Positions 53,567 to 55,781 of a stretch of DNA of 64,000 bases are shown here, in pieces. The DNA is from Methanocaldococcus fervens AG86 (GTDB lineage: Archaea > AGJL01 > Methanococci > Methanococcales > Methanocaldococcaceae), in NCBI RefSeq assembly GCF_000023985.1, contig NC_013156.1:1042363-1106362 (forward strand). The letters run 5' to 3'. The first letter of the stretch is position 1. Each line of letters opens with the position of its first letter. The position numbers were made by a program, and so were the translations under genes. A model generated the notes under the pieces. It worked only from the letters and a program-made list of their open reading frames with translations, was not told where the DNA came from and searched no databases.

Positions 53567-53729
53567 TTTTTATTTTCTTTAACTTTAAAATGATGAAATT
53601 AGAGTAATTTAAATTTATTATAACGAATACTTACAAAATCCTAAATTGATGTAACTACGAAAACTATATCTAAAATAAAAGTACGCTTAAAGGCAATAAA
53701 GTATTTTATAGCAAAATTTGGTGTTTAAA

Positions 53730-54644
53730 ATGAGTGAAATGGATATTATAAAAGAAACCTATGAAAAAATTAAGAATATGGAGATTAGGGGGGCAGGGAG
53801 AATAGGAAGGGCTGCAGCTAAGGCTTTAAAGGAATTTGCATTAAAAATTAGTAATTTAAGTGAAGAAGAGTTTAAAAACAAAATGAAAGAAGCAGGAAAT
53901 ATATTGATATCAGCAAGACCTACAGCTGTTTCTTTACCAAATGCTGTAAAGTATGTTTTAAAAGGATTAGATGAAGAAAATCCAAAGGAAAGAGTTTTAG
54001 AAAGGGCTGATGAGTTTATAAACTCCTCATTAAAAGCAATTGAAAATATAGGAAAATTTGGAGCCAATAGGATAAAGGATGGAGATACAGTATTAACTCA
54101 CTGTAACTCTGAAGCTGCGATAAGCGTTATAAAAACTGCCTACGATGAAGGGAAGGATATTAAGGTTTTCTGCACAGAGACAAGACCGAGAAATCAAGGC
54201 TACATAACTGCAAAAACTCTCTACGATTATGGAATTGATGTTACTCTAATAGTGGATTCTGCAGTTAGATACTTTATAAAAGATATAGATATTGTAGTCG
54301 TTGGAGCTGATGCAATAACAGCAAACGGCTGCCTTGTAAATAAAATTGGAACATCTCAAATTGCCTTAATAGCTAATGAAAGCAGAGTGCCATTTTTAAC
54401 AGCAGCTGAGACATATAAATTTCATCCAAAAACCATAGTGGGGGAGTTGATTGAGATAGAGGAAAGAGAGCCGGAGGAGGTTGTAACATTTGAAGATAAA
54501 TATAAAGGCATAAAGATAAGAAATCCTGCGTTTGATGTAACTCCAGCTAAGTATATAGATGCAATAATAACAGAAATTGGTTTAATTCCTCCACAGGGAG
54601 CTTGGTACATAATAGAGAAATACTTTGGATGGCTTGAAAAGTAA
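53730..54644 (+). CDS. Ribose-1,5-bisphosphate isomerase
   Basis: 304-aa eIF2B-like isomerase converting ribose-1,5-bisphosphate to ribulose-1,5-bisphosphate for the AMP/type III RuBisCO pathway. Recognised by the Gly-rich GAGRIGRAAAKALKEFA, SARPTAVSLPNAV, VLTHCNSEAA, FCTETRPRNQG, VGADAITANGCLVNKIGTSQ and NPAFDVTPAKYIDAIITEIG. Distinguished from aIF2B subunits by the ARPTAVSL and CTETRPRNQG context. GGTG at 53720 selects ATG 53730. Confidence 0.88.
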   Translation: MSEMDIIKETYEKIKNMEIRGAGRIGRAAAKALKEFALKISNLSEEEFKNKMKEAGNILISARPTAVSLPNAVKYVLKGLDEENPKERVLERADEFINSSLKAIENIGKFGANRIKDGDTVLTHCNSEAAISVIKTAYDEGKDIKVFCTETRPRNQGYITAKTLYDYGIDVTLIVDSAVRYFIKDIDIVVVGADAITANGCLVNKIGTSQIALIANESRVPFLTAAETYKFHPKTIVGELIEIEEREPEEVVTFEDKYKGIKIRNPAFDVTPAKYIDAIITEIGLIPPQGAWYIIEKYFGWLEK

Positions 54645-54680
54645 AAGTTATATACTCAAAAATCAAAATTAATATATGTC

Positions 54681-54800
54681 CCGGGTGGCGACCTTCCGCA
54701 GGGGATGAAACCACCTTGGCATTCTACCCACAAGGCGGCCGTGCCGAGTAGCCGTTACGGCTTCTATGAAGGCCACGGTTTTCCAAGGGTAGATACACTT
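54681..54800 (+). ncRNA. GC-rich H/ACA-type guide RNA
   Basis: A GC-rich island in AT-rich DNA with two hairpins. Hairpin 2: stem CTACCC (54724-54729) with GGGTAG (54787-54792), then AT and the ACA box (54795-54797). It has an internal pocket (54730-54738 and 54779-54786), upper stem CCGTG/CACGG, GA/TGA kink-turn residues (54746-54747; 54766-54769) and loop stem AGCCG-TTA-CGGCT. Hairpin 1: GGTGG (54684-54688) with CCACC (54711-54715), again with GA and TGA for a kink-turn and ACCC-ACA following. The strand is set by the ACA box. Confidence 0.72.
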
Positions 54801-54995
54801 TTTTATTAATTTAAATCAAAAATGATTTAACTTTTTTACACCTTAAATTTATATATTTAAATTTACAGTTTAATATTTTACAAAAATCAAAAATTATATA
54901 AAATTGTTTATCCAATGGTAATTACGAATAACCTTATAGTACAAACAAAGAAGTCAATTTTTCTTATAAGAAAAATTTTCTCTTAGGATGATAAT
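54801..54995. other. AT-rich leader region
   Basis: Between the H/ACA-type RNA and the ABC ATPase gene. Poly-T near 54800 could terminate the RNA. TATA-like runs at 54848-54862 may start the downstream operon. Nothing else seen. Confidence 0.5.
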
Positions 54996-55781
54996 ATGGA
55001 GATTAGAGAAATCACGATTATTGGCGGTTATGACAAAAACGGTAACCCGGAGCCAGTTAGGGAAGTTACAATAAAAAGAGGGGAAATCGTTGGAGTTGTA
55101 GGGCCAACAGGAAGTGGAAAATCAAACCTAATTAGTGATATTGAGCAGTTAGCTCAGGGAGACACAATATCAAAAAGAAAAATTTTGGTTAATGGAAAAG
55201 TTCCGCCAATTGAGATGAGGAGAGATCCAAAAAAGAGGAGGATTGCCCAACTATCACAAAATATGAATTTCTTAGCAGATATGACTGTAGAAGAGTTTAT
55301 TTTAATGCACGCAAAGAGTAGGGGAGTTTATAGGGAAAATATTGTTGATGAAGTTATAGAATTGGCAAATAGATTGACAGGAGAGCCAATAAAAAAAGAT
55401 TACAACTTAACAATCCTAAGCGGAGGGCAATCAAGGAGTTTGATGGTTGCAGATGTTGCTGTAATAAGTGATTCTCCTATCGTTTTAATAGATGAGATTG
55501 AAAATGCTGGGATAAAAAAGCATGAAGCTTTGGAGTTGTTGGCAGGGTATGGAAAGATTGTTTTAGTTATTACCCACGACCCTGTCTTGGCTTTAATGAC
55601 TGATAGAAGGATAGTTATGAGAAGTGGAGGAATGCAGAAGATTGTTGAAACTACTGAGGAGGAAAAGGAGATTTCAAGGAGAATAAATGAGGTTGATAAC
55701 TGGTTACTATCTTTGAGGGAAAAGATTAGGTTAGGAGAGAGATTAACTTATGAAGATGTAACTTTGGCGGTGAAAGAATGA
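54996..55781 (+). CDS. Soluble ABC-type ATPase of a metallocentre-like operon
   Basis: 261-aa ATPase, no partner permease. Walker [10 protein letters not shown], signature [14 protein letters not shown], Walker [11 protein letters not shown], switch His in VITHDPVLA. It begins [16 protein letters not shown] and ends with a C-terminal helix pair. RBS GGATGAT. Overlaps the GTPase gene by 4 bp (ATGA), which is followed by the Fe-S gene, so three proteins are made together. This set is methanogen-conserved. Function unknown, and assembly or reductive activation of a metalloenzyme is a reasonable guess. Confidence 0.8.

Follow-up and report, generated by a model that had tools for sequence, protein, structure and literature searches.

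Productive archaeal H/ACA folds fall into the 10/6/9 and 10/5/9 families, and an M. jannaschii H/ACA motif related to Pab40.3 has been reported to guide 23S L2015 (PMC4652768). For M. jannaschii, PMC3432209 credits screens based on GC content or base composition with 5 and 18 small-RNA candidates (Klein 2002; Schattner 2002). The locus described here lies within a 64,000-nucleotide stretch of Methanocaldococcus fervens AG86 DNA, referred to below as the window. Positions 54681-54800 have a GC content of 0.583 (0.58-0.59 for the region of ~54676-54804) against a window mean of 0.319, and only 9 of ~63,900 overlapping 120-mers across the whole window reach this value, the top one starting at 54680; this bears out the claim of an earlier note that the piece is the GC-richest of the window. 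On comparative grounds, the locus (Table 1) is very probably an independent gene for an archaeal box H/ACA small RNA with a predicted length of ~125 nt; it is preceded by a TATA-like box and followed by a U-tract. This level of confidence covers the identity of the RNA as an H/ACA guide and does not extend to the assignment of its target.

Table 1. Coordinates of the predicted RNA, its parts and its surroundings. Short residue numbers used in the text and table are the last two digits of the position (G38 = 54738, U79 = 54779, A30 = 54730).
Feature	Position	Strand	Remarks
Upstream neighbour, IF-2B-family gene	53718-54644	same strand as RNA	
Archaeal BRE/TATA-like promoter element, AAAAGTTATATA	54643..54654	+	~25 nt before predicted RNA start; read directly
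Predicted non-coding RNA gene, H/ACA-type sRNA with 5' kink-turn hairpin	54676..54804	+	kept in 35/36 Methanococci genomes; flanked by promoter and U-tract; ends predicted
Hairpin 1	54683..54716	+	stem GGGTGG/CCACCT; kink-turn cap (GA 54690-54691, UGA 54706-54708)
Hairpin 2, H/ACA guide unit	54723..54797	+	covariance model R1, 93.4 bits in window
Hairpin 2 lower stem, 5' strand	54723..54729	+	pairs with 54787-54793
Pocket, 5' guide strand, ACAAGGCG	54730..54737	+	A30, A32 and GGCG never vary, unlike positions 31 and 33
GA stem, 5' strand	54738..54747	+	10 layers to second G-A pair; 3' strand 54768-54779
Kink-turn of hairpin 2	54746..54769	+	sheared G46-A69 and A47-G68; 3-nt bulge 54765-54767; C-stem 54748-54753/54759-54764
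Pocket, 3' guide strand, UUUCCAA	54780..54786	+	one U fewer in G017
Hairpin 2 lower stem, 3' strand	54787..54793	+	pairs with 54723-54729; covariation
ACA (ANA) box	54795..54797	+	15 nt past GA stem; all relatives have ACA or AUA, the two outer A residues being invariant
U-tract, six T	54799..54804	+	read directly; U-rich end in most relatives
Downstream neighbour, ABC ATPase gene	54996-55781	same strand as RNA	
Hairpin-2 family copy in G007	G007:C1:118059-118137	-	

Conservation and architecture of hairpin 2

A DNA search recovers the RNA from each of the genus's 14 genomes and from some of those of the sister family, and the hairpin-2 covariance model extends this to one strong copy (73-95 bits) in 35 of 36 Methanococci genomes, the sole exception being a 54% complete assembly. 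Across 395 archaeal genomes sampled around G040, no convincing matches appear except in Methanococci; one archaeal match at E = 0.003 was rejected as a homologue, as it reads like coding sequence. An exact-pattern scan of 84,980 species, with records near the window left out, returns only scattered bacterial matches in a number estimated to be compatible with chance. A second, diverged member of the hairpin-2 family, L214 (G002:C1:1225313-1225386, minus strand, 47 bits), carries the pocket UUGGCGC/UUACAA and may have arisen by duplication of the guide and a shift to a different target.

The comparative signal in hairpin 2 is strong. Among 25-26 distinct sequences, 15-16 of the 20 pairs change on both sides and 95% of cells hold standard pairs, a proportion that falls to 34-48% once the partners are slid; the covariation score is 0.44-0.46, compared with 0.19 after shuffling and at most 0.10 after sliding. 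The helices are thus kept by compensatory change, as expected of an H/ACA unit, and the orthologue covariation whose absence the earlier note had named as a potential refutation is present. The fold of the single sequence is unremarkable (z = -1.56, with 15 of 200 shuffles equally stable), and the predicted fold pairs 54734-54735 with 54783-54784, generating a GG/CC contact across the pocket that, in this model, could partly close it and is counted against the guide reading. Unlike this single-sequence fold, the comparative evidence from the aligned sequences is taken as decisive for the structure of hairpin 2.

The lower stem comprises 7-8 bp, with 98.8-100% of cells paired and five of seven pairs changing on both sides. 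Above it, the pocket ACANGGCG/UUUUCCAA is almost frozen in the alignment while the stems drift, the pattern that a conserved target would impose. The guide strands measure 8 and 7 nt, or 7 and 6 nt if A30-A86 is assigned to the lower stem, consistent with the 5-8 and 5-6 nt of H/ACA pockets. The 5' strand of the GA stem spans 10 layers in every species (alignment A2), in agreement with the ~10 layers of the class. Pair 38-79 is G-U in most species and A-U in G015 and G033; because A-U replaces G-U there, it belongs to the GA stem. Consequently, the pocket that had been placed at 54730-54738 and 54779-54786 was right to within one base, G38-U79 closing the upper stem instead.

The GA and UGA of the kink-turn are invariant or nearly so and its C-stem covaries in the alignment, as in H/ACA kink-turns, and the ATACA said to end this hairpin does follow it. 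The ANA box lies 15 nt from the GA stem, or 14 nt in G017, where the orthologue (L208) is without one pocket U of the 3' guide strand; both values fall within the 14-15 nt of the class. A GA stem of 10 layers with 15 nt to the ACA fits the 10/6/9 geometry, and G017 at 14 nt fits 10/5/9, L208 representing a natural switch from the one to the other. In the sister-family (f2) orthologues L026, L177, L179, L180, L018 and L021, an extra helix (e.g. GACAG...CUGUC) encloses hairpin 2 beyond the ACA, so that in these orthologues the box lies away from any free 3' end.

Candidate targets of the pocket

By the known pathway, L7Ae would bind the kink-turn or kink-turns, Cbf5-Nop10-Gar1 would engage the ACA box and stems, and the pocket would pair with the target RNA, positioning an unpaired uridine for conversion to pseudouridine by Cbf5. 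Candidate uridines were assessed by published pairing rules, namely a 5' duplex of -6 kcal or better, standard pairs beside the target U, at most one wobble and a 2-nt spacer. Within the 16S, 23S, RNase P RNA and 29 tRNAs of this genome (G000), exactly one uridine conforms, that of 16S GCCGGAA[U]CCGUAG (core GGAA[U]CCG), a site which lies in the region GGAAUCCG and is conserved in all 24 species compared; by motif, we take it to be the equivalent of E. coli U1341. This U is the most likely target, tentatively proposed from the predicted pairing with 54781-54784 (UUCC) and 54735-54737 (GCG). The 3' duplex would consist of three pairs only, and pocket U 54780 stays unpaired in most species. Among 3000 shuffled guides, 330 give some rule-conforming conserved site and 81 (2.7%) give one as strong, which makes the 16S assignment suggestive only; the rRNA test proposed in the earlier note thus yields one conserved site, at a p of only ~0.03-0.11 against shuffled guides. 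The invariant pocket bases A30, A32, G34, A85 and A86 are unexplained by this best 16S pairing.

When 16S and 23S are scanned in free register, no strong complement emerges beyond those of shuffled guides; the raw scan of tRNAs gives weak U39-type matches with broken 5' duplexes, none of the 29 passing the rules; and genome-wide perfect complements of both arms are about as numerous as for the reversed control, with no orthologous recurrence apparent. Another H/ACA-like RNA, L215 (G002:C1:1071067-1071140, plus strand), is a weak match of the same covariance model, with a lower stem CCCTCTAAT/ATTAGAGGG followed by ACA and a pocket GGCCGA/UUCGAU. Its guide pairs cleanly with 23S CATCGA[U]GUCGG in the peptidyl-transferase region (-19.4 kcal), indicating that the target method can work.

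Several other roles for the frozen pocket have to be weighed. One reading, unlikely on our assessment, is an order-wide H/ACA guide in which the pocket stays frozen for the sake of a target that is non-ribosomal or otherwise unusual (conserved region I of RNase P RNA, for example), or because the particle acts structurally in addition to modifying RNA; the kink-turn hairpin at the 5' end would then provide a second platform reserved for L7Ae. Less probable again is a purely structural kink-turn RNA that binds L7Ae and guides no modification, its frozen internal loop being a protein or RNA contact. Such an RNA would accommodate kink-turns in both hairpins and an internal loop almost invariant even at bases left unpaired by the best target, but the ACA box and its 14-15-nt spacing, needed only by an H/ACA unit, are also kept.

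RNase P RNA as the specific target appears very doubtful. Here the pocket would pair with GGAAG-UU-CCGCC in conserved region I, beside the universal bulged U of P4, a site that offers the best free-register complementarity in the pool of stable RNAs from this genome (-20.1 kcal, against -17.1 kcal for the next site outside RNase P RNA) and whose arms, GGAAG..CYGCC, show conservation across 30 RNase P RNAs. However, the canonical uridine position is C in all genomes of the sister family f2, and half of the species have the wrong base there; the pairing uses the stem base G38, which is A in two species; the register that preserves the stem needs a 3-nt spacer, reported to be unfavourable (PMC4652768); and of 150 shuffled guides, at least 15 reach a better score at some site of the pooled RNAs.

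The 5' hairpin and the gene as an independent unit

Two hairpins with GA/TGA kink-turn residues had been described for this piece, and both are present. Hairpin 1 occurs in all 33 sequences examined, with a covarying stem of 4-12 pairs, an invariant GA...UGA and a kink-turn or kink-loop; its base may extend further (54676-54680/54718-54722). None of the 33 has, at hairpin 1, the marks of an H/ACA unit, namely a two-sided pocket or an ANA box. The earlier description of a two-hairpin H/ACA RNA accordingly stands for hairpin 2, whose kink-turn, GA-stem length, pocket, ACA distance and covariation match the published archaeal model, and fails for hairpin 1.

An H/ACA RNA with two working guides, hairpin 1 having a target of its own, would be in keeping with the conserved kink-turn and covarying stem of hairpin 1 and with a basal stem containing a small internal loop that the sequences of some members of the genus permit. 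Against this, no relative shows a hairpin 1 pocket of at least 5 nt per side or an ANA box, and the loops and base of hairpin 1 are poorly conserved compared with the almost frozen pocket of hairpin 2. The alignment largely refutes the two-guide arrangement, to which we give hardly any weight. As predicted from the aligned sequences, the full RNA is instead one guide unit, hairpin 2, preceded by a 5' kink-turn hairpin that is most readily interpreted as an additional L7Ae site and would probably stabilise or assemble the particle.

The flanks are consistent with a separate transcription unit. The element AAAAGTTATATA is a putative promoter of the predicted RNA, with similar AAAATATATATA elements at the equivalent upstream position in congeners, and the downstream U-tract is a probable transcription terminator. 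The IF-2B-family gene upstream probably encodes ribose-1,5-bisphosphate isomerase. Across the 29 loci examined, the upstream gene is kept in 11 and the downstream gene in 4, all within the genus; since the gene neighbours change while the RNA persists, it is an independent gene. It is scarcely credible that the RNA acts in cis, whether as a leader or attenuator for the ABC ATPase gene or as a 3' element belonging to the isomerase gene. Although its two neighbours share one strand and a U-tract closes the RNA, it persists where these genes are not adjacent and has a TATA-like element directly upstream.

Significance and place among archaeal H/ACA RNAs

Assigned H/ACA guides are still few in methanogens. 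The present RNA is single-copy throughout Methanococci, including the genetically tractable Methanococcus, is described by a clean covariance model and falls outside Rfam at its cut-offs. The candidate pairing predicts that the 16S uridine equivalent to E. coli U1341, which lies in the 30S ridge contacting P-site tRNA, is converted to pseudouridine.

At the gathering thresholds of Rfam 15, the sole hit in the entire window is a tRNA, and no family covers the RNA at these or at relaxed thresholds; its best plus-strand sub-threshold matches are the H/ACA families PyrR201 (54726-54795, 22.6 bits) and PyrR208. The RNA shares with Pyrobaculum sR201 (RF02801, PyrR201) a single canonical H/ACA unit, the weak covariance match extending over all of hairpin 2, but the guide strands differ and the score lies under the family's 49-bit gathering score. 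With Pab40/HgcG (RF00064) and the M. jannaschii L2015 motif it shares the class and a kink-turn similar to the HgcG consensus. HgcG gives no plus-strand match at the locus, and a Pab40.3-type guide was rejected, as the HgcG consensus implies a helix 69 pairing (GUAAC-UA-UAACCC) that would be impossible for the present pocket.

The closest structural likeness is to the archaeal box H/ACA sRNAs of the 10/6/9 and 10/5/9 families, such as the Pab RNAs of Pyrococcus abyssi and Afu46 of Archaeoglobus, which likewise combine a 10-layer GA stem, a kink-turn, a pocket, an ANA box at 14-15 nt and a short lower stem. Unlike these, the present RNA has a lower stem of 7-8 strict pairs rather than 9, a pocketless kink-turn hairpin in front and another guide sequence. 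It also resembles the products of the 2002 M. jannaschii screens in being a GC-rich intergenic RNA of plausible size in an AT-rich hyperthermophile, and it may already be among them. Collectively, these comparisons place the RNA as a new guide within the known archaeal H/ACA class, one that may coincide with a 2002 M. jannaschii candidate.
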